Origin: Spraguea lophii
Lineage: Eukaryota > Microsporidia > Spragueidae
Reading direction: 5' to 3'
Length of the DNA stretch: 64,000 nt
NCBI GenBank assembly: GCA_001887945.1
Contig: LDOQ01000168.1
Coordinates: 1 to 64,000 of the forward strand
Part shown: positions 1 to 56,356 of the stretch, piece after piece
How the letters are laid out: each line of letters begins with the position of its first letter
Position numbering within the stretch: the stretch's first letter is position 1
Notes under the pieces: generated by a model
The model's database searches: none
Told to the model about the DNA's origin: nothing
What the model saw: only the letters and a program-made list of their open reading frames with translations
Program-made: the position numbers and the translations under genes

Positions 1-369
1 GCATTAATCTCATCTTACCTTATGCACCAGAGTGTTAGGATTTTGCGTCTGGTGCGCGTCGCCGCCCCCACTTCCAGCTCTTAAGGAATTCCCAGCCTCT
101 TTCGTTGCATAGTATTGGCCGAGTCACAAATCAATACAGGGATTGCAACTACATCAGCTGAACACTACTTTAATCTAGTAGCGGGGCCGTCATACAAGGC
201 ACAGCTATGCTGCGCTATCGAAACCTCACCCACTCAACAACCTTTTTCTTCTCTTCTCCGTTTATTATTATTCTTTTTTTGTTTTGAAAATTTTTTCTGG
301 ATGAGGGATTCGAACCCGCCAGGCTTGGGGTTTGGTTATCACCCCACGACCACTGGGCCAGGCGGGACT
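1..369 (-). mobile_element. tRNA-headed SINE, young copy, cut by window edge
   Basis: The element reads on the minus strand, with its 5' tRNA-like head at base 369 and its body running to base 1, where the window cuts it. The head has a perfect Pol III box B (GGTTCGAATCC, 306-316) and box A (TGGCCCAGTGG, 350-360). Against the copy at 8240-8752 I count about nine substitutions and one 1-nt indel over 369 bases, so both are recent. The body is far richer in GC than the surrounding DNA. No protein is encoded; the 93-codon reading frame across it on the plus strand is fortuitous. Confidence 0.85.
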
Positions 370-8225: not shown

Positions 8226-8239
8226 TTAATTTGTATGAT
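8226..8239. repeat. target-site duplication, left copy
   Basis: TTAATTTGTATGAT here is repeated exactly at 8753-8766 and brackets the SINE. A perfect 14-bp duplication beside an A-rich tail is the hallmark of target-primed reverse transcription by a LINE-type machinery. Confidence 0.9.
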
Positions 8240-8752
8240 TTTTTTTTTATTTTTTTTTATTTTTTTACGAATGAAACTTTTATTTATCAAAGCTTCCTGG
8301 CCGGTTGCGGCCTACCATGGTCCGTGACCTTCGGTTCCTCGAGCGAATTTAAGCTTGTACTAACTGGTTTCGTTACAGATCTGCATTAACCTCATCTTAC
8401 CTTATGCTCCAGAGTGTTAGGATTTTGCGTATGGTGCGCGTCGCCGCCCCCACTTCCAGCTCTTAAGGAATTCCCAGCCTCTTTCGTTGCATAGTATTGG
8501 CCGAGTCACAAATCAATACAGGGATTGCAACTACATCAGCTGAACACTACTTTAATCTAGTAGCGGGGCCGTAATACAAGGCACAGCTATGCTGCGCTAT
8601 CGAAACCTCACCCACTCAACAACCTTTTTCTTCTCTTCTGCGTTTATTATTATTATTTTTTTTGTTTTGAAAATTTTTTCTGGATGAGTGATTCGAACCC
8701 GCCGGGCTTGGGGTTTGGTTACCACCCCACGACCACTGGGCCAGGCGGGACT
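8240..8752 (-). mobile_element. tRNA-headed SINE, full-length young copy
   Basis: The element is about 510 bp and reads on the minus strand. Its 5' head (about 8681-8752) has box A TGGCCCAGTGG (8733-8743) and box B GGTTCGAATCA (8689-8699), spaced as in a tRNA gene. The head lacks a good acceptor stem, so it is tRNA-derived rather than a tRNA. The body (about 8268-8680) is GC-rich and non-coding. The 3' end reads ATAAATAAAAGTTTCAT and then an A-rich tail (T-rich on the plus strand, 8240-8267). A perfect 14-bp target-site duplication flanks it. All parts of a SINE are present; a LINE reverse transcriptase acting in trans is implied by the known biology but is not seen here. Confidence 0.92.
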
Positions 8753-8766
8753 TTAATTTGTATGAT
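8753..8766. repeat. target-site duplication, right copy
   Basis: Exact copy of the 14-mer at 8226-8239, directly abutting the tRNA-like head of the SINE. Confidence 0.9.
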
Positions 8767-11951: not shown

Positions 11952-14900
11952 ATGTCTAAGAATAATATTTTGATAAAATCTTTTTTTGAATACAAAATGC
12001 TGGCTAGACAACATATAGATTCATTCAACTATTTTATTAACCATGACCTTCAAAATATTCTCGAGGCTAATAAATATGTAGAATCTGATATCGATCCTTC
12101 TTTTTATATAAAATATTTAAATATAAGAGTAACTAGTCCTACGGTGGAAGAAAATATGTTATCATATCCTATATATCCACATGAGTGTAGATTAAGAGAT
12201 TTTAATTATTCTGGTAATGTATATGTTGATGTAGAATACACAGTCAATAAAGAAGTTGCTGTGAAAAATAATATTTTATTATGTAAAATACCTATAATGT
12301 TAAGAAGTGAAAAATGTTACTTATCAAAAGATGAGGTTAAAAGTGAATGTGAATTGGATACTGGTGGATATTTTGTAGTCAAGGGTGTAGAAAAGGTTGT
12401 TATGATGCAAGAACAATTGTCTAAAAATAGAATTATTATTGATGTAGATTCTAAAGGGAATCTTGTATCTTCTGTAACGAGTTCTACATATGATAAAAAG
12501 AGTAAGACGACTATTATGATGAAAAATAATGTATTATATGTTAAACATAATACATTTGTAGAAGATATACCATTTTGGATTGTTGTTAAAGCGTTAGGAA
12601 TTCTATCTGATGTTGAAATAATATCTTTTATCGGGGAAGAAATTGAAATTTTAAACTTTTTATCTCAGACTGTAGAAGAATCGGTAAAACAGAAAATAAA
12701 AGGAGAAAAAGATGCATTATTATTTATTTCTAAGAGGATGATACTAGATACCAATATGGAAGATTGTAAATCTGTTTTAAATGATGTTTTATTACCAAAT
12801 ATTGTTTCTGTAGGGTGTCCTAATCGTAAAAGAGCTATTTATTTGGGGATTATGGCCAGAAGACTTATACAAGCACATTTGGGTATTTTTGAAAAGGATG
12901 ATAGAGATTTTGTGGGTAATAAAAGATATGAGCTTGCGGGACAACTTCTTTCTCTGTTATTTGAAGATCAATTTAAAAAATATAATTCAGATTTAAAAAA
13001 ATCTATAGATAAGATTCTAACAAAAAATTCTAGAGCTCAACAATTTGATGCTTTGCTTTATATGAATTTACAATCTAATTTAATTACTGTTGCATTTTCT
13101 AGAGCAATATCCACTGGAAATTGGAATCTTAAAAGATTTAAAATGGAAAGAAGTGGTGTATCCCATGTGCTTTCTAGATTGTCGTATACTTCTGCTCTAG
13201 GAATGGTTACAAGGGTTTGTTCACAGTTTGAAAAGAATATGAAGACTTCTGGACCAAGAGCCCTCAATACATCTTCTTGGGGATTGTTATGTCCTAATGA
13301 CACTCCTGAAGGAGAATCATGTGGTTTAATAAAAAGTTTGGCATTAATGGCAGAAATTACAACTGATGAAGTTGAAGAGAAAAAATTAAATATGATTGAA
13401 AATGTTTTGTATGACATAGGAATGATAAATATAGAGACTGCTAATTGTAATATATATTCAAAAGATACATATCTTGTTTTTCATAATGGTTCTATCTTGG
13501 GTGTTACTAAGAATACAGATTTTATGATACAAACACTGAGGAAAATGAGAAGAAGTGGAGAAATAAGTAAATTTATTTCTATAGATAAAAACGATAAGAA
13601 TAAAAGTATTTATATATCAAGTGATGGTGGTAGAATTTGTAGACCATTACTTATCGTAAAAGATAAAAAGTTGCTGATAGAAGAAGAAGATTATGAGTTT
13701 TTAAAAAATAAATATAAAAATTTGGAAGATCTTTACTGTGAAGGGAAATTAGAGTTTTTAGATGCGAATGAGAGTAAAAGTTGTCTTATAGCTTTAAATG
13801 AATCTGAGATTACAGAAAATACAACACATATGGAAATTGAGCCTTATACTATTTTAGGATATGTAGCAGGTATAATTCCTTTTCCTCATCATAATCAATC
13901 GCCTAGAAATACGTATCAATGCGCTATGGGTAAACAGGCAATGGGTATTATAAGTTATAATCAGAATAATAGATTTGATACACAGTTAAACACTTTGGTT
14001 TATGCTCAGCGACCTTTAGTTTCTACGGAAACAACAAAGATAGTAAATTTCGATAAACTTCCAGCAGGACAAAATGCTATGATAGCGGTAATGTCATATT
14101 CTGGATATGATATTGAAGATGCAATAATTTTGAATAAAGCATCAGTAGAAAGAGGTTTTGGACGATGCTCTATTTTTAAGACTACTAGTGTGTCACTTAA
14201 AAAATATTCTACAGGGTTTACAGATACGCTGTTACCAGGAGATAATACTTACAAATTTAAATGTTTAGATTCAGATGGAGTTATAAAACCTGGAGAGAAG
14301 GTAAAACAAAACCAAATTTTGGCAAATAAACATATACCTACAGAGAATTATGGAGAATATAAACCATCAAGAGAAGTATTTAAGGGTGCAGAAGCCATTG
14401 TAGATAAGGTATTAGTTACAAGATCAGGAGACGATAAAATTTTAATAAAAATATTGCTTAGAGAAACTAGAATCCCAGAGGTTGGTGATAAATTTAGTAG
14501 TAGACATGGTCAAAAAGGTGTTGTAGGATTAATAGCCAATCCAGAAAATATGCCATTTACTGAAGATGGAATAGTACCCGATCTTATAATGAATCCTCAT
14601 GGTTTTCCATCAAGAATGACAGTCGGAAAAATTTTAGAACTTATTAATGGAAAGGCTGCATTGTTTAAAGGAATTCAAGATGCTACCGCATTTGCTGAAA
14701 ATAAAACAGAATCAATATGTAATATTTTAAGAGAAAATGGATATAATTATTCTGGCAAGGATGTATTAATTGATGGAATAACTGGGGAAGTAATGAAAGT
14801 GTATGTATTCTTTGGTCCTGTATTTTATCAAAAATTAAAGCATATGGTTGCTGATAAAATCCACGCAAGAGCCAGGGGAAAACGAACCATGCTTACCAGA

Positions 14901-15188
14901 CAACCAACGGAAGGTAGATGCAGAGAAGGTGGTCTTAGATTAGGGGAGATGGAAAGAGATTGTCTTGTAGGATATGGAGCATCTAATTTACTAAAAGAGC
15001 GATTATTGTATTCTTCTGATATATTTGAAACATTCATATGTGGACAATGTGGAATACTGGCCTCTGAAAATCTTTGTTCTTTGTGTAAGAAAGGAAATAA
15101 TATAAAGGTAAAAATACCATATGCATTTAAATTATTATTACAAGAATTGATGTCTATGAATATATACCCAAAACTAGAATTCAAGTAA
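11952..15188 (+). CDS. RPC2: DNA-directed RNA polymerase III second-largest subunit
   Basis: This 1078-aa protein is the beta-like subunit of RNA polymerase III, which transcribes tRNA and 5S genes. Visible hallmarks are PIMLRSEKCYL and GGYFVVKGVEKVVMMQEQLSKNR in the protrusion region, LNTSSWGLLCPNDTPEGE in the fork, GYDIEDAIILNKASVERG in the hybrid-binding domain, GDKFSSRHGQKGVVG around residue 845, and a C-terminal zinc site with Cys1030, Cys1033, Cys1042 and Cys1045 before a short tail. The insertion pattern and QEQLSKNR favour Pol III over Pol I or II. Length is close to the fungal subunit (about 1150). The ATG follows CCC (11949-11951) without a gap. It would be part of the enzyme that transcribes the SINEs in this window. 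Confidence 0.96.
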   Translation: MSKNNILIKSFFEYKMLARQHIDSFNYFINHDLQNILEANKYVESDIDPSFYIKYLNIRVTSPTVEENMLSYPIYPHECRLRDFNYSGNVYVDVEYTVNKEVAVKNNILLCKIPIMLRSEKCYLSKDEVKSECELDTGGYFVVKGVEKVVMMQEQLSKNRIIIDVDSKGNLVSSVTSSTYDKKSKTTIMMKNNVLYVKHNTFVEDIPFWIVVKALGILSDVEIISFIGEEIEILNFLSQTVEESVKQKIKGEKDALLFISKRMILDTNMEDCKSVLNDVLLPNIVSVGCPNRKRAIYLGIMARRLIQAHLGIFEKDDRDFVGNKRYELAGQLLSLLFEDQFKKYNSDLKKSIDKILTKNSRAQQFDALLYMNLQSNLITVAFSRAISTGNWNLKRFKMERSGVSHVLSRLSYTSALGMVTRVCSQFEKNMKTSGPRALNTSSWGLLCPNDTPEGESCGLIKSLALMAEITTDEVEEKKLNMIENVLYDIGMINIETANCNIYSKDTYLVFHNGSILGVTKNTDFMIQTLRKMRRSGEISKFISIDKNDKNKSIYISSDGGRICRPLLIVKDKKLLIEEEDYEFLKNKYKNLEDLYCEGKLEFLDANESKSCLIALNESEITENTTHMEIEPYTILGYVAGIIPFPHHNQSPRNTYQCAMGKQAMGIISYNQNNRFDTQLNTLVYAQRPLVSTETTKIVNFDKLPAGQNAMIAVMSYSGYDIEDAIILNKASVERGFGRCSIFKTTSVSLKKYSTGFTDTLLPGDNTYKFKCLDSDGVIKPGEKVKQNQILANKHIPTENYGEYKPSREVFKGAEAIVDKVLVTRSGDDKILIKILLRETRIPEVGDKFSSRHGQKGVVGLIANPENMPFTEDGIVPDLIMNPHGFPSRMTVGKILELINGKAALFKGIQDATAFAENKTESICNILRENGYNYSGKDVLIDGITGEVMKVYVFFGPVFYQKLKHMVADKIHARARGKRTMLTRQPTEGRCREGGLRLGEMERDCLVGYGASNLLKERLLYSSDIFETFICGQCGILASENLCSLCKKGNNIKVKIPYAFKLLLQELMSMNIYPKLEFK

Positions 15189-15784: not shown

Positions 15785-16073
15785 AAGTAATTAGTTGGTT
15801 CATTATATATATACATTAATTTCACCTTACCTTATACAGTCATTGGTGTATTGGGATTTTACATATGATGCAATCATTATTCTATTCGATTAATATAATT
15901 TTAACCTTATTATTTACACAGTGGGGACGGTATCAAATTATATTATTTAACCACATTTCTATTTTTTATCTTTTATAGTTTTATTATTTTGAAAAGTTTT
16001 ATATATACCAGGATTCGAACTCGTCAGGTTTGGAAATTAATTATTATTTCACAACTATTGAGCCAGGCAGAAA
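15785..16073 (-). mobile_element. old SINE copy, decayed
   Basis: It aligns by eye with the minus-strand young copies from the GCATTAACCTCATCTTACC block (here CATTAATTTCACCTTACC, near 15814) to the tRNA-like head. Box B is degenerate (ATTCGAACTC near 16013) and box A reads TGGCTCAATAG. Much of the middle has turned to A/T. The head ends only about 28 bp before the start codon at 16102. Confidence 0.7.
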
Positions 16074-16098
16074 TAATATATTTTACTTAAATTTTTCA

Positions 16099-16101
16099 CC
16101 C
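16099..16101 (+). promoter_or_regulatory. CCC start-adjacent motif
   Basis: CCC abuts ATG 16102. This chooses that ATG over an upstream TTG at 16030, which lies inside the SINE relic, and makes both 212-aa paralogues equally long. Confidence 0.65.
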
Positions 16102-16740
16102 ATGAAAAATATTATTATTTTTGTTTTATTTTTTCCATTTCGGTTTTCTGCTCTTTCAGAGACCAAAGAATATTTTACAGAAAGAGTGAAATTAATCACA
16201 GCAAATAATTCATTAAATAATTTAATAGAAATAATGATGAATATTTCTTATAATATAGAAAATGATTATTTAAATGGTTACGATAAAGATAAATTAAAAA
16301 CAATAAAAGATAATTTGGCAGATACAGCTACAAATTACGGGCCAGGGTTAAAATCTGTATTTGGATCTTTGTTAGGAATAGAATACGGAGCTTTTCTTAG
16401 CAATCAAGATTATAAAGATTTACAAGAAATTGTAACTTTTCTTTCAGATAAATTATTAAGGAAAGTATCAGATTGTGAAAATTTTAAATTTATAAAAGAG
16501 GAACTTAACGTAAAAAATAAGTTATTAGGATATAGGTTATTACATAAAATTAATTATATATATGAAAATATTGAAAATTTGGAGAATAATGAAATAGTTG
16601 AAGTTTATTATAATATAGTATGTTCTTATACAATGATAAAAAATGCAAATCGAGTAATGAAGATATACACATATATATTTGCTACGTTAATTTCTTTAGT
16701 ATTTGCAACAATAACAATTAAAAACTTTAAAAAAAAATAA
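16102..16740 (+). CDS. secreted/membrane protein, paralogue A of tandem pair
   Basis: A 212-aa protein of unknown function. Residues 1-17 (MKNIIIFVLFFPFRFSA) form a signal peptide. The middle is mostly helical and polar with one Asn-glycosylation-like site (NIS), a YGPGL turn near residue 80 and two Cys. A C-terminal membrane segment (about 190-206) ends in a basic NFKKK tail. The topology is that of a type I surface protein, or a soluble protein held in the ER by the KK tail. It is about two-thirds identical by eye to the protein at 18649. The 3' flank (about 50 bp) is also shared, so the pair arose by tandem duplication. Confidence 0.85.
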   Translation: MKNIIIFVLFFPFRFSALSETKEYFTERVKLITANNSLNNLIEIMMNISYNIENDYLNGYDKDKLKTIKDNLADTATNYGPGLKSVFGSLLGIEYGAFLSNQDYKDLQEIVTFLSDKLLRKVSDCENFKFIKEELNVKNKLLGYRLLHKINYIYENIENLENNEIVEVYYNIVCSYTMIKNANRVMKIYTYIFATLISLVFATITIKNFKKK

Positions 16741-16908
16741 ATTTTGAATTATACTAAAAAATAATATAGTGATTACGTGTTTAACAAAATAACTACATTT
16801 TTAACGTTCCGAACAATAGGTATTGCTTTGAATAAATGCTTATAATTATATATCATACTCTGGTTCATGAACGAGATAACGCCAAACTTGACTGTGGTAA
16901 GAAAAAAC
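16741..16908. other. spacer with duplicated 3' flank
   Basis: The first 50 or so bases are nearly the same as those after the paralogue at 18649-19287. The rest is AT-rich. Confidence 0.5.
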
Positions 16909-17330
16909 AAGTCCGTTTACTTGAGTGGTAATGGGACGATGCCAAAATCCAAACTTGGAAAGTACGACCTTCACCTAGACGAATTTTTAAAACAAAAAAA
17001 ATAAGCACAATAAACTTAATTGGTGAGGATTTGATAATATAACATTAGTTATGCTTTGTATAACTACCCTGTTACTAGATTAAAGTGACGTCTGTTGGTG
17101 TAATTGCAATCTTTGTATTTATTTGTGACCCAGTCAATATTATGTCAAGAAAGCGGATAAGAATTTTTAAAAAGCCGAGGTAACGATATGTATTATACTA
17201 AAAAGCCTAATGATCTGGTGCATATCCGTAACGGAATTAATTATATAAATTTAAATGTACTTTAGAAACAAAAGATCATAAATTACGGTAGGTTAGGAAA
17301 TTTCGATAAATAAATGTTTCAGTAAAAAAT
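16909..17330 (+). mobile_element. old SINE copy, opposite orientation
   Basis: This copy reads on the plus strand. The head starts AAGTCCGTTT and keeps TGAGTGG as a box A remnant, and box B is changed (GTACGACCTTC). The body blocks TATGTCAAGAAAGCGG and GATCATAAATTACGG and the end GATAAATAAATGTTTCA, with an A-rich tail, are all recognisable. Most differences from the young copies are C to T or G to A. I could not find a target-site duplication. Confidence 0.75.
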
Positions 17331-17920
17331 GTATTATCCTTTTTTAACTAGGTTATTTGGTTAAAAAGTTCCTTAGTAGTACATTTTTTTACGATCAAAT
17401 ATAAAGATTAACAATTTATAAAAGAAAAATAATTATTGCTCAATACTTTTTATTATTATTTATTGTTTTTTTTATTTTTCAAACCTTATTTATATTTATG
17501 AATACCTCGATTAAGAAGGAAACGACCTTTTAAACAGTTAGAATTATAATTAAATAAAACACGAGTAATATATTCTATAAATTTTCTGGAATATTATCAT
17601 ATATATATTGATTTAACTGTACCACTTGAAGTATTAGAAAAACTCATTAATATTTATTTAATTATTTTTTTATGTTAAAAAGATTTCCTCAAAATATAAT
17701 CACATATTATATATGTTATACAGAAATAGAAAAATTCTTTATAAAATTCTATTCCTTTAAAAACAAAAAAAAAATATAAAATAATGTTTTTAAATAAAAT
17801 TTAATACATTTTTTCAGTGACTTTTTTAATGCTTCTTTAGTAATATACAAGATTTTATTTGACAATTTTTATTATTATTTTTTGTAATTGAGAATATCCG
17901 CTGCTTCCTTTTATATAAAT
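17331..17920. other. gene-free AT-rich stretch
   Basis: Homopolymer-rich DNA between two inward-facing SINE 3' ends. Nothing else is visible. Confidence 0.4.
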
Positions 17921-18368
17921 TTATTTTTTTAAATGAAACTTTTGTTTATCGAAGTTTCCTGAAAGATTGTAGCCTACCGTAGTATATAATATTCGGTTCC
18001 CAAAGTACATTTAAACTTATACCAAATTATTTCGCTATAAATATATCTTGACCTACATTATGCTCCAGATCGTTAAAGTTTTGAATGTAATACATATCAC
18101 TACCTCGGTTTTTTATAAATTCTTAATCTCTTCCTTGACATAATATTGACAGAGTCGCAAATCAATACGGAGATTACAAACTGCATTTGATAGACATTAC
18201 TTTAACCTAGCAGTGATATAGTTATACAAGGCATAGCTAATGTTATGTTATCGAACCCTCATTCCACTACTTTTTCTTCTTTTTGTTTTTGAAATTCTTC
18301 TAGATGAGAGATTCGAATCCATTAGATTTGAAATTTGATTATCATCCCATGAACATTGGAATACTATT
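17921..18368 (-). mobile_element. old SINE copy, nearly full length
   Basis: It aligns with the young copies along almost the whole length: the GAAACTTTTGTTTATCGAAG end, GTAGCCTACCGTAG, ACCTACATTATGCTCCAGA, GTCGCAAATCAATACGG, ACCCTCATTCCACTAC, then TAGATGAGAGATTCGAATCC (box B preserved, GGATTCGAATC) and a decayed box A region. The great majority of changes are C to T or G to A. It lies upstream of the second 212-aa paralogue. Confidence 0.85.
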
Positions 18369-18648
18369 ATATAAATTTATAATATTTTTGAATTTCAATT
18401 AATGGAAATTGTGAATCTCTTTTTTGTCTTTAAAATAAATAAAATAGATATAATTTTTTTATCCGATTTTTTTGATAAGAAAATATATAATTTTCCAATT
18501 GTATTATAAAGAAACAAAAACAAATATAAACACATCACAACATTACAAGAAATTTATGTTTTAATGATATTTTTTTGATCTAATTAATCAATGTAATTTT
18601 TTATATAAAATGATAATAAATATTTCTATAATTTAATTATCTCTCCAC
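18369..18648. other. AT-rich upstream region of paralogue B
   Basis: No further element is visible. A short CC-containing word (CTCCAC) sits before the ATG at 18649. Confidence 0.4.
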
Positions 18649-19287
18649 ATGAAAATTATTGGTGTTTTTGTTTTGTTCCTTCCATTCATGTTTTCCGCTC
18701 TTCCCAAGACCGAAAATTATTTCGTAGAAAGAATAAATTTACTCACGACAAATAATTCATTAAATAATTTAATAGAAATAATGATGAATATTTCTTATAG
18801 TGTAGAAAATGATGATTTAAATGATTACGATAAAAATACATTAAAAACAATAAAAGATAAGTTGGCAAACACAATGGCAAATTACGGTCCAGGGGTAATT
18901 TCTACATTCGGGTCGTTATTGAGAATGGAATACAAAGTTTTTCTTAGTAGCCAAGATCATAACGATTTACGAAAGATTGTAACTTTTCTTTCGGATAAAC
19001 TGTTAAAAAAAGTATCAAATTTTAAAAGTTTGGACTTTGTAAAGGAAGAAGTTAATGTAAAAAATACATTATTAGGATATAGACTATTACATAAGATTAA
19101 TTATATATATGAGAATCTTGAAAATTTAAAAAATAATAAAGTAGTTGAGGTTTATCATAATACAGTATGTTCTTATACTCGGATGCAAAACGCAAATCGA
19201 GCAATGAAGGTATATACATGTATATTTGTTGCATTGATTTCTTTAATATTTGCAGCTATAACAATTAAATACGTTAGAAAAAAATAA
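18649..19287 (+). CDS. secreted/membrane protein, paralogue B of tandem pair
   Basis: At 212 aa it has the same length and design as the protein at 16102: signal peptide MKIIGVFVLFLPFMFSA, a helical polar middle with NIS and YGPGV near residue 80, a C-terminal membrane segment and a YVRKK tail. The function is unknown. Both copies are intact, which suggests both are used. The duplication unit is about 2.55 kb and each copy has a minus-strand SINE relic upstream. Secreted duplicated families of this kind in microsporidia are often host-facing, but nothing here shows that directly. Confidence 0.85.
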   Translation: MKIIGVFVLFLPFMFSALPKTENYFVERINLLTTNNSLNNLIEIMMNISYSVENDDLNDYDKNTLKTIKDKLANTMANYGPGVISTFGSLLRMEYKVFLSSQDHNDLRKIVTFLSDKLLKKVSNFKSLDFVKEEVNVKNTLLGYRLLHKINYIYENLENLKNNKVVEVYHNTVCSYTRMQNANRAMKVYTCIFVALISLIFAAITIKYVRKK

Positions 19288-19764
19288 ATTTTGAATTATA
19301 CTGAAAAATAATATAGTAATTACGTATAATTGTTTTATAATAACCTTTATTTGGATTATTTGTTTATATCTGTTTTTCTTATTCGTATTACTTCTTGTTA
19401 ATATTCTTAAAGAAATTTTATTTAGTAATATTTTTTATCGTAGAATATCGGGTTTTACAATTTTATATCAATAATAAAGATTATGATATTTATCTTTTGA
19501 AACATATATATCTATTATTTACTTAGCAAATTCATAATTGCAATGTTTAATTTCAAAAACCGTATTATATTTTAATGTATTAAATTAATTATTTTATTTA
19601 TATGCGGTAAAATGGCGATCGTTCTTTAACTAGAATTACTTAATACATACTTTTAATTATTTCTCAAACAATCCCATTGGTGTAAAGATATTAAAAGTAA
19701 CAGAAGATTCGTACAATTTTCTTTATTATGGATATGATTTGATTTCAACTGAACTCCTAATTCG
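19288..19764. other. gene-free AT-rich stretch
   Basis: It begins with the duplicated 3' flank of paralogue B. Beyond this nothing is recognisable. Confidence 0.4.
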
Positions 19765-20220
19765 ATTTTTTTCGTTCAAATAATACTTTAATTATTATCA
19801 AAGTATCCCATCCAATTGCGGTTCATCATAATTTAAAATTGTTAGTCTCTTGCATGAATAATTTGTACTATTTGGTTTAGTTATATATATACACATTAAC
19901 TTTATTTTATTATCCAGAAAAGGATGTGTGTACAATGCGATCATCACCATATCATATTTATACAGTTGTAACTTCCTTCTTAATATAATATTTGGTGAGC
20001 CACTAATCAATGCAGATATTATAATTACATTGGATAAGGATTATTCCAATGTCCAGCATACAAAGCATAGATAAACTTACGCTGTAAAATCACCACATAT
20101 TCAATTCTCTTTTACCCTTTTATTTTTTTGTTTTAAAATTTTTTATGGATGAAAGATTCGAGCTTCGCCAAATTTAAATTTAGTTCTTACTCGCACAATT
20201 ATCGATTTAAGCAGGCCTAT
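19765..20220 (-). mobile_element. old SINE copy, heavily decayed
   Basis: Blocks in the right order for the minus-strand element are TTATTATCAAAGTATCC, CCAATTGCGGTTCATCAT, TACACATTAACTTTATTTTATTA, GCCACTAATCAATGCAGAT, CATACAAAGCATAG, then ATGGATGAAAGATTCGAGC (box B remnant) and CGATTTAAGCAGGC (head). The whole length is represented but the GC-rich body has mostly become A/T. Confidence 0.7.
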
Positions 20221-21919: not shown

Positions 21920-21985
21920 CAAACACATAAGATAAGATTAATGCATATATGTAACAAAACCAATTAATATAAATTATTTAAGAAA
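21920..21985 (+). mobile_element. SINE fragment (3' part)
   Basis: CACATAAGATAAGATTAATG followed by CATATATGTAACAAAACCAATTAAT corresponds to the reverse of the body block CATAAGGTAAGATGAGGTTAATGC...GTAACGAAACCAGTTAGT in the young element. It is a short truncated piece on the plus strand. Confidence 0.5.
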
Positions 21986-25754: not shown

Positions 25755-26238
25755 ACAGCATTAGTTCGTTAAAGTATGTAATCTATTTTTACTAATTGGA
25801 TTCGCACATATATGTATTAATTTATTTTATGTTTCTGAGTGATATGAATTTATAATAATATATTAGCATATTATTAATATTATCAGTATTGTTCTACATT
25901 CAATTATAATAATCATGATTATATATTTTGTGCATGGTATAATCATTATTTTATTATCTTTAACGAAATTCACAACTTCTTTCTTGGCATAATATTGGCC
26001 GTATCAGAGACCAATCCAGAATTACAACCACATCGAATAAACACTACTTTAATCTTGTAATAGAGCCATCGTACAAGTCACAGTTAAGGTTACGCTATCG
26101 AATTCCTAGTCCATTACTTTTTCTTTATATTTTTTATCGTTTATTATTTTTTTGATTTGAAAGTCTTCTGGATGAGAGATTTGAATCGTCAAGCATGGAA
26201 TTTAGTTACTCCATGACCATTGGACTAAACAGCTTCTA
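25755..26238 (-). mobile_element. old SINE copy, with internal insertion
   Basis: It carries CACATATATGTATTAATTTATTTTATG (near 25805), then about 80 foreign AT-rich bases, then TTTCTTGGCATAATATTGGCC, GACCAATCCAGAATTACAACC, CTGGATGAGAGATTTGAATC (box B remnant) and CCATTGGACTAAACAG (head). The head stops about 35 bp before the HisRS start codon, so the SINE and the gene point away from each other. The CCCC box of HisRS lies in the short remaining gap. Confidence 0.75.
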
Positions 26239-28744: not shown

Positions 28745-30307
28745 CTATTTTTTATTCTTATTACTACCAATAGATGTATTATTATTAACAATGCTATTAT
28801 TACTAATATAACTATTATCATATCCATTATCATTATTATTATCATCATTATCTTTATTATAAATATAATCTATATCTATATTGCTATTAATATATTTAGT
28901 AGTTATATTTTTTATAGAAGAAATAAACATATTATAATTTCTATTATCTTTATATCTTAGAAATATTATTAATATTTCTTTTACTGTTTTATATATTCTA
29001 TCTATTAAAATATTATTAGTATTATTATTACTATTATTAGTAATGGTGGTAGTATTATAATTATTATTATAAGGGTTAGTATAGGTTATATCTTTATCAT
29101 CTTTATTGGTATTATTATTATCATTACTACTACCAATACTACTAATATTATTATCTTTATCACCTATAATATTATCTTTAATATCTTTATTATCATGATT
29201 ATATAATTCTTTTAAATAATAATCTAATATATATATTAATATTTCATATACTATAGATATATTATTATTTATCTTATTATTTTTTATTATATCTTTTATT
29301 AAAATATTATTTATATTCTCTATTATATCGTTATTATTACAAGGGTTAGTATAACTTATATCGTTATTATCGTTATTGTAAAGGTTAGTATAGGTTATGT
29401 TACTATTATCATTGTTACAAGGGTTAGTATAGGTTATATCGTTATTATCATACGTATTACTATTATCATTATCATCACATCTATCATTATTATACTGTAA
29501 ATACTTTAGAATGTATATATAAAACTTATCTATATTATTATTATTATAATAATATATAGCTATAATATAATATATTATTTTATTCTTTATTATTTCTTTT
29601 ATATATTTTATATTATTATATACATTTGTATCATATTTATTATTTGTATATGAAATAATAGAATAGAATAATATTATATATTTATTATCTATCTTCTTAT
29701 TGTTTATTATACAATCATAGATATTATTAATATAATTAGTAGTAGTATTATTATTAGTATGGTTAATAGTAGTAGTATTATTGTTAGTAGTATTACTACC
29801 TATACTCTTATTATCATTACCATTACTATTATTATTATTATTGTCTTCTAATATTTTATATGTTTTTTTTAATTCTTTATAAAATATATCTAATTCTTCG
29901 TTGAATTTATTATTTAATTTATTATTGCTCGTGGTAACATTATTATTTAGTTTATTACTATGTTTATTATTATTGTTAATATTATTTATATCTCCATATT
30001 TTGTATATTTTTGTCCACCATTACAATCATTTCTATATTTCTCTTTATTTCTCTGACTATCATATTCTGAAAAAAATATATTATTGTTATGTATATATTT
30101 ATTGTTATTATGTGTATATTTATTGTTATATGTATATTTATTGTTATCATATCTATTATTATCATTATTATTATGTGGATATTTTTTATCATATTCTTTA
30201 TCTTTATTATTATCACTATAATTATATTTTATAGTATCTATCTTCTGTATACATTCTGCTTTTGTACAATGTTTTATATTACATTTATAAATATTATTAT
30301 TCTTCAT
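28745..30307 (-). CDS. Asn-rich low-complexity protein with short tandem repeats
   Basis: The 520-aa protein is dominated by Asn, Asp, Tyr, Ile and Lys. It has three more structured islands (about residues 130-150, 205-270 and 340-365) rich in Ile/Tyr/Leu that look helical. A repeat of about 12-13 residues with the core ITYTNPCNN occurs four times (see 29069-29104 and 29335-29450). There are two Cys near the start (CNIKHCTKAEC). I do not recognise a family. The frame stays open for 1.5 kb despite the composition, and this favours a real gene, but AT-rich repeats can also keep frames open. There is no clear CCC box. Confidence 0.55.
   Translation of the reverse strand: MKNNNIYKCNIKHCTKAECIQKIDTIKYNYSDNNKDKEYDKKYPHNNNDNNRYDNNKYTYNNKYTHNNNKYIHNNNIFFSEYDSQRNKEKYRNDCNGGQKYTKYGDINNINNNNKHSNKLNNNVTTSNNKLNNKFNEELDIFYKELKKTYKILEDNNNNNSNGNDNKSIGSNTTNNNTTTINHTNNNTTTNYINNIYDCIINNKKIDNKYIILFYSIISYTNNKYDTNVYNNIKYIKEIIKNKIIYYIIAIYYYNNNNIDKFYIYILKYLQYNNDRCDDNDNSNTYDNNDITYTNPCNNDNSNITYTNLYNNDNNDISYTNPCNNNDIIENINNILIKDIIKNNKINNNISIVYEILIYILDYYLKELYNHDNKDIKDNIIGDKDNNISSIGSSNDNNNTNKDDKDITYTNPYNNNYNTTTITNNSNNNTNNILIDRIYKTVKEILIIFLRYKDNRNYNMFISSIKNITTKYINSNIDIDYIYNKDNDDNNNDNGYDNSYISNNSIVNNNTSIGSNKNKK
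29335..29450 (-). repeat. tandem repeat of about 33-39 bp inside the Asn-rich gene
   Basis: The words ACAAGGGTTAGTATA...TTATATCGTTATTATC recur three times here, and once more near 29069, with point changes and multiples of three in spacing. On the minus strand they encode variants of ITYTNPCNNDN. The frame is kept through all copies. Confidence 0.8.
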
Positions 30308-30757: not shown

Positions 30758-32278
30758 TTATAACTTATCATTATTATTTAAAATCTTATTACCATTTATA
30801 ATCTTATTATCATTTATTCGTTTTGTCTTATATATGCCTTTTAATTTATATATTTTATTAATATATTCTTTTATTACTTTTTCTTTAACATTTAATTTTG
30901 TAAGCTTATCTTTTAATAATAACATTTTATTGTTATATTCATTTTCTTCTTTTATATTATTTATATTATCATGAATATTTATTTTATTATTGATATTACT
31001 ATTAATATTATTTTCTTCATATGCTTTCATATTGCTTATTTTACTTTTGTTATCCTTAATATTATTATTGATACTATCCTTGATACTATCCTTAATACTA
31101 TCATAATTATTATCATACTCATTCTTAAAATTCGCTTCTTTCTTAATATTTTCTTCTTTCATATTTGTTATCACTTCTTCGTATTCTTTTTTAATATTTT
31201 TTATTATTTCTTCATATTCTTCTTTTATTTTATTCATTTTATTTTCTTCATATGCCTTCATTATATTTTTTATTTCTGTTATTGTATAATATACATCATT
31301 AGATTTATATTTATTTTTAATATTTTCTATATTAATATTTATATTCTCTTTATTTTCTTCTATTATAGATATTAATTCATTATTATATTTTTTTAATACA
31401 TTTATTTTATTGTTAAGATATTTATTTACTTCTTTTAGTTTTATATTATCTATATTATTATTGTTTATATTTTCGTTTATATTTTCGTTTGATTTAGATG
31501 TTAGTTCATTATTTATATTATTATTATTTGTATCTATATTAGTTACTTCTATATCATTATCATTTAATTTATTATTGTTTATTTCTTGTAGTTTTATATT
31601 TTCTTCTATCAATTTTTTCATTTCCTTCTCACTTTTACTTTTATATTCTCTTATTTCCTTTTCACTTTTATTTTTATATTCTTTCTTTATCTCTTCTATT
31701 TCTTTATAAATTAAAAGATATATTTTACCACGTATAGAAAGTATTTTACGTTGTGTATCTTTTAAATCATCTAATTCTTTTTGTATGATATTTAAAGATA
31801 TCATATTATTATTTTCATTTGATATTTCTTTTCCTGTATTAATGGTATTAATAATATTAGTATTTAGGTTATTATTATTTAAGTCGTTATTATCATTATT
31901 AATAGTATTAGTAATATTAGTATTAATTTTGTTATCAATGTTAAGTGTGTTTAGGTTATCTTCATTTAAAAAATATTTCTGATTAACTTTGTTATATTTA
32001 TTTGTTTCTTTATTTTCATGATTATTGTCTAAATTATTATTTATATTATAGTTATGTTTGTTATGTTTGTTATCTAAATTATTATCCTTGTTATAATTAT
32101 ACTTATTATCTAACTTATAACCTTTTTCTTTGTTATAATCTATATCATCTTTATTATCATTTAAATTATATTCTTTATTATTGAATACATTTATATTTTT
32201 TTCTAATAACTTAGATTTACGTATTACAAAACTATCATCATATTTACGTTCTAAATTATTTAATTCTGTATCTGACAT
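30758..32278 (-). CDS. coiled-coil, Asn-rich protein of unknown function
   Basis: At 506 aa the first third is Asn/Asp/Lys-rich. From about residue 165 a long coiled coil begins (ELDDLKDTQRKIL, then EIEEIKKEYKNKSEKEIREY) and continues with Asn-rich interruptions to about 480. There are two near-repeated pieces, MKAYEEN, about 75 residues apart. No signal peptide or membrane segment is visible. The gene is real by the CCC test: CCC (GGG at 32283-32285 on plus) lies 4 bases before the ATG. Its function cannot be told; a structural, motor-associated or kinetochore role would be a guess. Confidence 0.75.
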   Translation of the reverse strand: MSDTELNNLERKYDDSFVIRKSKLLEKNINVFNNKEYNLNDNKDDIDYNKEKGYKLDNKYNYNKDNNLDNKHNKHNYNINNNLDNNHENKETNKYNKVNQKYFLNEDNLNTLNIDNKINTNITNTINNDNNDLNNNNLNTNIINTINTGKEISNENNNMISLNIIQKELDDLKDTQRKILSIRGKIYLLIYKEIEEIKKEYKNKSEKEIREYKSKSEKEMKKLIEENIKLQEINNNKLNDNDIEVTNIDTNNNNINNELTSKSNENINENINNNNIDNIKLKEVNKYLNNKINVLKKYNNELISIIEENKENININIENIKNKYKSNDVYYTITEIKNIMKAYEENKMNKIKEEYEEIIKNIKKEYEEVITNMKEENIKKEANFKNEYDNNYDSIKDSIKDSINNNIKDNKSKISNMKAYEENNINSNINNKINIHDNINNIKEENEYNNKMLLLKDKLTKLNVKEKVIKEYINKIYKLKGIYKTKRINDNKIINGNKILNNNDKL

Positions 32279-32771
32279 TTAAGGGTTTAAAAAAAACAAA
32301 GAAATATGTAATATAGATAATAATTTATGATATAGATATTAGTTTACGATAAGTATAATAATGATAAATAGAATAGTTTATGATAAATGTAATAATGATA
32401 TAGATATTTAAAAAGTAATTATAAATATTTCATTTAAGAATAATTATAAATATTTTTTAATAGAGCAATAAACTTAATAATAAGATAATAAAGAAATATT
32501 ATCAATGTGTAATAAAACATATAATTTTATAGTTTCTTATATTTTCAATAACAATTTATTTTTACACGTACATTCATAATAGTTGTTTTTAATTTCTTAT
32601 ATTTTCATTAGTAATAGGTTTTAATTTCTTATATTTTCATACGTATATTTTTATAATTGTATTTATTTGTTATTTTTTATTAAATGAAATATTTTATACA
32701 TCTGAAACATATCATCTATCTTTTTTTTCTCTTACCACAATATATTATATTTTTTTTGTTTCAAAACAAAA
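32279..32771. other. divergent intergenic region
   Basis: AT-rich, with a few repeats of TTTCTTATATTTTCA near 32530-32640. No gene or RNA is visible. Confidence 0.4.
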
Positions 32772-52903: not shown

Positions 52904-53372
52904 AAAATATACTTAGCTGAGTGATCGTACAATGGTAACCAAATTATAAGCTCAGTAGGTTTGAATTCTTTGGATAGGAGAATTTTAAGAAAAGAATAAA
53001 GTAGAAGAAGAAGATAAAAGTTAGTAGACGTGTAAGAATTCAATAGTGTAGTTTTGGTTATACCCTGTACGATGATTCCATTACTAGATTGAAGCAATAT
53101 GCAGTGAATGTAATTGTAATCCCTGTATCGATTTGTGACTCAACCAATATTATGCCAAGAAAGAGATTAGGAATATCAAAGAAACATATGAGGCGGTGGC
53201 GTGCACCAGATGCAAATTCTACCGCTTTAGAGCATAAAGTAAGATGAGATTAATGTATATATGTAACGAAACCAGTTAATACAAGTTTAAATATACTTTA
53301 GGAACCAAATGTCATAAACCACAATTGGTCAGAAAACTTCGATAAATAAAAGTTTCATTTTTAAAAAATTTA
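52904..53372 (+). mobile_element. SINE copy, full length, opposite orientation
   Basis: This plus-strand copy has the head (box A TTAGCTGAGTG, box B GGTTTGAATTC), CCAATATTATGCCAAGAAAG, GGCGGTGGCGTGCACCAGAT, GTAAGATGAGATTAATG, GAAACCAGTTAATACAAG and the end GATAAATAAAAGTTTCATTT with an A-rich stretch. It is better preserved than the other old copies, so of intermediate age. Half of the body is still GC-rich. No target-site duplication could be seen. Confidence 0.85.
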
Positions 53373-54892: not shown

Positions 54893-56356
54893 ATGCATAA
54901 AAATGGTAATGAATATGTTGATAAAGATACCAATGGAAATAATAAAAATAATGATAATAGTTTTTCTAATATTAAATCCCAAGATAACCATATCCATAAT
55001 AATTTACATTGTAATGGTAATATTGGTAAAGATTGTAAAAATGATAACAATTTTTCTAATACGACTAACAGCAATAGAACAACGAATGATAATATTATTA
55101 ATAAAAAATATACAACAGAGCAAAATAAAGATAAAATACAATATAATACAGATAATAATAAATACAAACAAATTACAGAAGAAAATTATAAAACCGATAT
55201 TAAAAATAATAATGAATCAGGTGATCTTAATACAAAATCTGATAAACAATTTTTAAAGGAAGAACAAACTGTAGATTTAGAAGAAAGAATAAAAAATATA
55301 AATGTAAATGATAGAAAACTGATGAATCACAATGATATTAAGAATCAGAATAATAATGATATTATGAATGATAGTAAGAATATTAAAAATGATAAAAAAA
55401 CAATAAACAACAACGAACATAATATAATTAAAGAACCTATTGATATTAAAACACTTAAGAATAAAAAGAAAATAAAAATAATAAATAAAATAGAGATAAC
55501 AATAGAAAATAGAAATTGGAATATAAAAAAGAAGATCGAAAAAAGAAATATAAATATTTTATTTTCAGATAAAATAAATATAAAAGTAGAATGTAATAGA
55601 TGTACGTCTATGCATGATATAAATATTATTAAAAAAAATAAAGATAAAAATATCATTGAAAATATACAATGTAATAAATGTAAGAGTGTTATGAATATAA
55701 CATATACTCCATCGTTAGAAGATGAATATTTAGGAATGTTATTAATTTATAATTGTAAATTTATTATGTTTAATAGTATAGAATATAAATTTATGTGTAA
55801 TTGTGGTACATTCTATGAAGAAATAGATTATGATGAAAATAATGATAATGATAAAGATGATGAATGTAATTATTTTAAAAATATAAGAAGAGAATTGAAA
55901 GAGAGATGTTTTAATTGCAATGAAAATATAGGATTTAAAATAAAGAATATAAAATATATTATTAGTAGTAAAGATAATATTGTTTTAAAGGCTAATACAC
56001 CATTACCTAAGAATGGTACGTGTGTACATTATAAAAAATCTTATAGATGGTTTAGATTTCCTTGTTGTAATAAATTATATCCATGTGATGTATGTCATGA
56101 TGATAATAATAGTAAAAATCATTTATATTCTGTATCTAGTAATTGTGGATTGTGTGATGTAAAATATACAGGAAAGAGTTCTGGTTATATGGCTAATATT
56201 ATGGTATGTGGATTTTGTTCTTTAGAACAGAGTGTAAAGAAGGAATGTAAGTGTGGAATGAATATGAAAAAGAATACAATGTATTGGGAAGGTGGTAAGG
56301 GTATGAGGAATAAACAGAGTATGAGTAGGAAAGATAGTAAGAAATATAAAAAATAA
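54893..56356 (+). CDS. CHY-type zinc finger protein with Asn-rich N-terminus
   Basis: The first 170 or so of the 487 residues are Asn/Asp/Lys-rich. Then come beta-like parts with CxxC pairs (CNRCTSM and CNKCKSV). The C-terminal CHY zinc finger starts at Cys377: GTCVHYKKSYRWFRFPCCNKLYPCDVCHD, then CGLC, VCGFCSLEQSV and CKCG. The chain ends YWEGGKGMRNKQSMSRKDSKKYKK, which follows the pattern WEGGxGTRxxxxMSRxDxRKYK of an uncharacterised fungal CHY protein family. The domain binds several zinc ions. CHY proteins include ubiquitin ligases and mitochondrial Hot13, but there is no RING here, so the role stays open. CCC directly precedes the ATG. Confidence 0.88.
   Translation: MHKNGNEYVDKDTNGNNKNNDNSFSNIKSQDNHIHNNLHCNGNIGKDCKNDNNFSNTTNSNRTTNDNIINKKYTTEQNKDKIQYNTDNNKYKQITEENYKTDIKNNNESGDLNTKSDKQFLKEEQTVDLEERIKNINVNDRKLMNHNDIKNQNNNDIMNDSKNIKNDKKTINNNEHNIIKEPIDIKTLKNKKKIKIINKIEITIENRNWNIKKKIEKRNINILFSDKINIKVECNRCTSMHDINIIKKNKDKNIIENIQCNKCKSVMNITYTPSLEDEYLGMLLIYNCKFIMFNSIEYKFMCNCGTFYEEIDYDENNDNDKDDECNYFKNIRRELKERCFNCNENIGFKIKNIKYIISSKDNIVLKANTPLPKNGTCVHYKKSYRWFRFPCCNKLYPCDVCHDDNNSKNHLYSVSSNCGLCDVKYTGKSSGYMANIMVCGFCSLEQSVKKECKCGMNMKKNTMYWEGGKGMRNKQSMSRKDSKKYKK

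Follow-up and report, generated by a model that had tools for sequence, protein, structure and literature searches.

The window, i.e., the whole stretch of DNA analysed, comprises bases 1-64000 of contig C19 in an assembly of 5.27 Mb and 73 contigs, and its G+C content is 23%. It encodes RPC2 (11952-15188), which is most similar to a protein of Astathelohania contejeani (56%); the three named organisms among the five best matches are A. contejeani, Hamiltosporidium tvaerminnensis, and Gurleya vavrai. Because of these matches the genome carrying the element described below is assigned to a microsporidian, as the earlier note had proposed; judged by RPC2, the organism itself has no entry in the database searched. 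The window also contains other repeats and asparagine-rich proteins. The segment 4798-6498 contains a repeat present twice in tandem (73%), which is common to L031, L053, L058, L084, L087, L095, and L098 (69-83% where shown). We take its frames to resemble a Merlin-type DNA transposon, with no convincing match in Pfam. The stretches 16072-16778 and 18615-19325 are 82% identical and cover ORFs of 236 and 212 amino acids without a Pfam match; old copies of the SINE lie between them. Proteins very rich in asparagine are encoded at 28745-30307, 30758-32278, and 54893-56356, among others, and also at locus L013 on contig C2.

Anatomy of the Element

A SINE of 513 bp, a length within the range of about 100-600 bp usual for such elements, occupies 8240-8752 on the minus strand, with its 5' end at 8752 and its A-rich tail at 8240. 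Transcripts would start at AGTCCCGCC, and the 3' end of the SINE reads GCTTTGATAAATAAAAGTTTCATTCGT. It is flanked by two identical 14-bp copies of TTAATTTGTATGAT, at 8753-8766 on the 5' side and at 8226-8239 on the 3' side, and this sequence has no third occurrence in the window. Read along the minus strand, the element consists of a tRNA-like head (8680-8752), an A-rich linker between head and body (8621-8679), a G+C-rich body without recognised origin (8288-8620), the motif ATAAATAAAAG (8277-8287), and the A-rich tail (8240-8266). The G+C content is 44%, as compared to 20-22% in the 1-kb flanks. The earlier note had described a complete SINE of about 510 bp between exact 14-bp duplications, and both descriptions hold; the orientation is an addition.

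The head carries two stretches that fit the consensus of the internal promoter elements, box A (TGGCCCAGTGG, 8733-8743, minus strand) and box B (GGTTCGAATC, 8690-8699, minus strand), in a tRNA-like spacing. The combined pattern occurs in three places in the 64-kb window, namely in this head, in that of a second copy (307-360), and in a tRNA-Ser gene, and it had no match in 50 mononucleotide-shuffled windows. The linker holds the only sense-strand TTTT of the family consensus, at position 80; in some organisms such a sequence may end polymerase III transcription early. A protein search with the SINE gave no match, and neither did the one open stretch noted in the consensus, about 95 amino acids on the opposite strand (E <= 1). 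Taken together, the element is almost certainly a complete tRNA-headed SINE on the minus strand.

The claim of a tRNA-like head stands as far as the boxes and their spacing are concerned, but neither ARAGORN nor Rfam calls the head as a tRNA, and no cloverleaf fold was found in it. The 75 bases of the head were aligned to 23 distinct tRNAs called by ARAGORN, mostly from 20 fetched tRNAs, while the genome lists 57 tRNA genes. This comparison with the organism's own tRNAs, which the earlier note had suggested, gave the highest scores for Arg(TCG), Ser(GCT), and Trp, none of them decisive. Arg(TCG) scored best with 47 identities, while Ser(GCT) reached 50 at the cost of more gaps. It is thus the promoter boxes alone that mark the head as tRNA-like. 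At three tRNA genes a SINE copy lies no more than about 300 bp away (C40:3118-3191 with L100, C16:74991-75063 with L039, and C9:67784-67857 with L046). An association between SINEs and tRNA genes was considered and dropped, these three close cases found by eye comparing with about one expected by a rough reckoning.

Copies in the Window and in the Genome

The window contains 11 matches to the SINE: two are young copies, and the other nine, of which the weakest has an E-value of 2e-4, are old or fragmentary. The second young copy (1-369, minus strand, 98.6% identical to the consensus) is incomplete, the contig beginning at position 369 of the consensus. Old copies are found at 52920-53368 (plus strand, 69%), 17920-18359 (minus, 66%), 16924-17329 (plus, 61%), and 19766-20170 (minus, 61%), and an old partial copy at 25960-26223 (minus, 71%). 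The remaining matches are an old head fragment overlapping an ORF by 39 bp (15965-16068, minus, 70%, E 6e-10), two other old fragments (21928-21975, plus, 83%, E 9e-8; 15787-15871, minus, 69%, E 2e-6), and a weak and uncertain one (32712-32766, minus, 73%, E 2e-4). Together the matches make up 4.8-4.9% of the window and about 10% of the part outside ORFs of at least 150 amino acids. Extrapolation from the nine old pieces in this single 64-kb window would mean about 700 such pieces genome-wide.

A genome-wide search, as the earlier note had recommended, gave 143 matches to a head pattern (at most two mismatches) and 130 to a body-end pattern (at most three mismatches), with none for the reversed control of either pattern. 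Pairing of the head and body-end places among the matches listed leaves at least 142 sites. The sequence GCTTTGATAAATAAA, with one mismatch allowed, has 153 matches in the genome as against eight in its reversed control. A DNA search, in which 40 of 408 first-look candidates were scored so that the copy number derived from it is a lower bound, returned 40 near-full copies at 94-100%, including the window copy, and one match at 67%. The 5' end is constant to within 2 bp in these 40 copies, which are spread across many contigs, and the A-rich tail varies in length.

For closer analysis 117 regions were fetched, chosen from the DNA-search and pattern lists and thus a subset of the places found. 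Together with the window they contain 148 BLAST matches to the window copy, of which 105 are near-full and 43 partial. A consensus was built, and as a query it gave 167 matches in the 296 kb examined, while its reverse gave none. Three places with the tail pattern that lay outside the SINE lists were tried as possible LINE ends, and all three turned out to be truncated SINE copies. The family is dispersed and has been copied well over a hundred times.

Target-Site Duplications and Mobilization

Duplications were sought by comparing the 5' flank of each copy to its tail region (score >= 11), the flanks of different copies being paired as a null. Of the 105 near-full copies, 60 carry such a duplication, as against 1.7% in the null. 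Among the 81 young copies (at least 93% identical to the window copy) 58 have a duplication at this score and 23 do not, while for the 24 more diverged near-full copies the numbers are two and 22; such a shortage is expected if decay erases the duplications. The 59 exact duplications are 11-16 bp long (mean 13.5), and each copy has its own sequence. The earlier note had named copies lacking duplications and having variable ends as evidence against a SINE; the copies found instead have their own duplications and a fixed 5' end.

Twenty-two of the young copies are truncated at the 5' end. Four of these had too little upstream sequence and were left out, and 12 of the 18 tested have a duplication (score >= 10; null 2.0%), six having none. 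The shortest product noted here, L137, is a 38-bp stub of the SINE 3' end flanked by a 16-bp duplication. No insertion-site motif was seen beyond A+T richness. A is rare directly before the duplication, which is read as an artefact of the duplication overlapping the A-tail. An empty allele of the window insertion site was looked for elsewhere in the assembly and was not found.

Target-primed reverse transcription by LINE enzymes yields duplications of variable length and copies that keep the 3' part but may be truncated at the 5' end. The same combination is seen here and points to this type of mechanism. Given boxes A and B, RNA polymerase III would transcribe the SINE from within, and the A-rich end of the RNA would be taken up by a LINE endonuclease and reverse transcriptase. 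These enzymes would nick the chromosome, and the A-rich end would prime cDNA synthesis at the nick. Completed insertion would leave the duplications of 11-16 bp, and an early stop the 5'-truncated copies, both of which are the products observed. The age series described below shows that inserted copies afterwards drift to a higher A+T content, whereas their source hardly changes. There is very little doubt that this is a tRNA-headed SINE moved by LINE enzymes, with copies that decay while the source barely changes.

Search for a LINE Partner

Nine reverse transcriptase (RT) matches were obtained in the genome, seven of which were assigned to a type, L014 and L015 being the other two. L009 (within L135), L011, and L010 are of the LTR type by domains or frames, L010 by frames only. 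Two of the loci L135, L011, and L010 have long open frames, and RT, RNase H, protease, and integrase domains are found between them. L013 and L016 are one frame on contig C2, which, to judge from its motifs, presumably encodes a telomerase reverse transcriptase. L012 and L017 are read as LINEs. The RT of L012 is above the cut-off (35.3 bits), but the locus is decayed. L017/L136, with which contig C72 ends, combines an endonuclease-like region (Exo_endo_phos, 19.8 bits with a cut-off of 24.5) and the beginning of an RT. This RT does not reach the RT cut-off and lacks a Pfam match, and the locus is typed as a LINE because of its protein matches. The piece is out of frame, and the contig ends before the LINE 3' end. 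Its G+C content is 37-51% per 200 bp.

The best of 49 protein matches to the C72 piece is 31% identical (99% covered) and another is 27% identical (89% covered), higher identities than 31% being confined to short stretches. The search covered proteins up to about 800 amino acids, a size range outside of which full-length LINE proteins fall. The strongest named matches are Tx1-like proteins of Smittium culicis (27-36%), a gut fungus of insects, while the matches to animal proteins (Schistosoma, Branchiostoma, and others) are weaker. When the L017/L136 frame was searched against the genome six matches were found, namely itself, three pieces of L012, and two short ones of 35 and 42 residues on C21 and C1. 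An intact LINE was not among them, the two short matches being unreadable in this respect. SINEs often have a 3' end in common with their partner LINE, but the body and tail of this SINE have no similarity beyond that of shuffled sequences to the two LINE loci, one of which is missing its 3' end. Judging from the endonuclease-like and RT sequence, LINE machinery apparently exists or has existed in the genome.

Age and Decay of the Family

The 81 young copies differ on average by 1.6% from their own consensus. Within two pairs of copies at different sites (L021/L024 and L033/L034) there are no substitutions, indels not being counted, which speaks for recent movement of the family. To this extent the earlier note was right to consider an active SINE, but the description suits the family and not the window copy itself, which differs by 2.5% from the consensus and by 2.1% from its nearest relative. 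A minor base is present in at least eight of the young copies at 20 columns, which suggests several source lineages.

The G+C content falls with identity, from 0.449 in the 90s (101 copies) through 0.404 in the 80s (11 copies), 0.363 in the 70s (13 copies), and 0.305 in the 60s (14 copies) to 0.18 in the single copy in the 50s. In old copies C>T and G>A outnumber the opposite changes about fourfold. RIP and CpG decay were considered and rejected, as C>T has its lowest value before A (0.181) and is not highest before G (0.258, as against 0.285 before T).

The source of the old copies was reconstructed as the majority base at each column. For the 22 copies at 70-85% the majority agrees with the young consensus at 456 of 485 columns, the differences being 17 C>T or G>A and 12 other changes, while for the 16 copies at 55-70% it does so at 411 of 481 columns (54 C>T or G>A and 16 other). 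At columns 321, 404, and 483 the majority bases of the old copies persist as minority bases in the young ones. This agreement, obtained with old copies found by their likeness to the young consensus so that a very different older family would escape, indicates that the source changed little while its copies decayed. The family is long resident and its source nearly still, and the plain reading of such a still source is selection on the source copies. The wider picture is put forward tentatively, as possible but short of probable: a lineage with a nearly unchanged G+C-rich source in an A+T-biased genome, with copies that have decayed by as much as about 40% and recent movement without a visible intact LINE. 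If it is true, it implies either strong selection on source copies for retrotransposition or re-supply from outside, i.e., from the host.

Alternative Explanations

That the repeat is a product of assembly or of contamination by host DNA is highly improbable. At least seven contigs start inside the SINE (C3, C15, C19, and C25 as read, and C54, C56, and C60 by pattern position), which might raise suspicion, but contig breaks are the usual effect of a multi-copy repeat on an assembler. The four contig starts that were read (the window, L059, L119, and L120) share a single hexamer, ATGCAT, close to position 368 of the consensus and in either orientation, which indicates that the assembly breaks at the SINE repeat. 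The window copies are moreover surrounded by A+T-rich DNA, their contig also encodes RPC2 and other microsporidian genes, and the duplications of copies outside the window differ from one another. It is even harder to believe that a MITE, i.e., a non-autonomous DNA transposon, or some other repeat has been taken for a SINE. Like a MITE the element is short, dispersed, and without a long open frame, but no terminal inverted repeats were found when looked for in the window SINE, the copies have A-rich tails, and there are 5'-truncated copies with duplications. The duplications of a MITE have a fixed length, unlike the variable ones seen here. An rDNA spacer, which the earlier note had mentioned beside a MITE as a possible identity for the whole unit, was rejected, Rfam giving no rRNA match in the window and the tRNA-Ser gene only.

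That the SINE did not originate in the microsporidian lineage but came by horizontal transfer from the animal host, in one or several events and perhaps together with a LINE, is a more serious possibility, if on balance an unlikely one. The SINE and the C72 LINE piece both deviate in G+C content from the window, none of the 23 own tRNAs compared is a clear parent of the head, and many microsporidian transposons are described, in the passages cited, as exchanged horizontally with animals (PMC4202319). On the other hand, the old copies (55-85%) come from almost the same source, which speaks for long residence, and within the size range searched the strongest named matches to the LINE piece are from Smittium culicis and not from animals. 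Exact SINE patterns had no match in IMG/VR (two scans) or in prokaryote contigs (one scan), nor did the protein search give any. The preferred reading is that of a long-resident SINE family moved by LINE enzymes.

The Family in Relation to Known Systems

Microsporidia are a standard example of genome reduction, and SINEs are hardly described in them. The elements reported here are a genuine, recently mobile, and long-resident family in an unusual host. A young SINE family above a deep layer of decayed copies means that retroposition by LINE enzymes can persist in a reduced genome. The series of decaying copies is a resource for studies of mutation bias and history, and the insertions can serve as markers for population work.

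The statement of the earlier note that no well-described SINE is known from microsporidia agrees with the papers searched. Among the titles and abstract openings listed in searches of the open literature there was no paper describing a microsporidian SINE family, and the words "SINE" and "SINEs" are absent from the main text of six papers (PMC4202319, PMC7313128, PMC3749934, PMC12449221, PMC12558613, and PMC13174016). The statement has to be modified in one respect, as a repeat table for Nosema bombycis lists 28,669 bp, or 0.18%, as "SINE" (PMC3614468). The passage concerned gives no element, head, or duplications, while here about 4.8% of the window is involved and the full anatomy is available.

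Of microsporidian LINEs, Dong-R4 is reported, in the sections cited, from N. bombycis (PMC3614468), LINEs of the Dong-R4 and L1 types from Microsporidia sp. MB (PMC13174016), and four non-LTR families from Anncaliia algerae (PMC4202319). Microsporidian LINEs are candidate suppliers of the machinery, and the piece found here has endonuclease-like and RT regions, but the LINE pieces in this genome are broken.

Among fungal SINEs, Mg-SINE of Magnaporthe (472 bp, about 100 copies), the active Foxy of Fusarium oxysporum (about 160 copies), and AfuSINE2 of Aspergillus fumigatus (duplications of 4-14 bp) all have a tRNA-related head according to the descriptions cited (PMC5063351), and this is a feature that they have in common with the present family. 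The likeness is one of descriptions. The present family differs from them in that it is found in a microsporidian, where an assembly of 5.27 Mb holds 143 head matches together with a layer of decayed copies.
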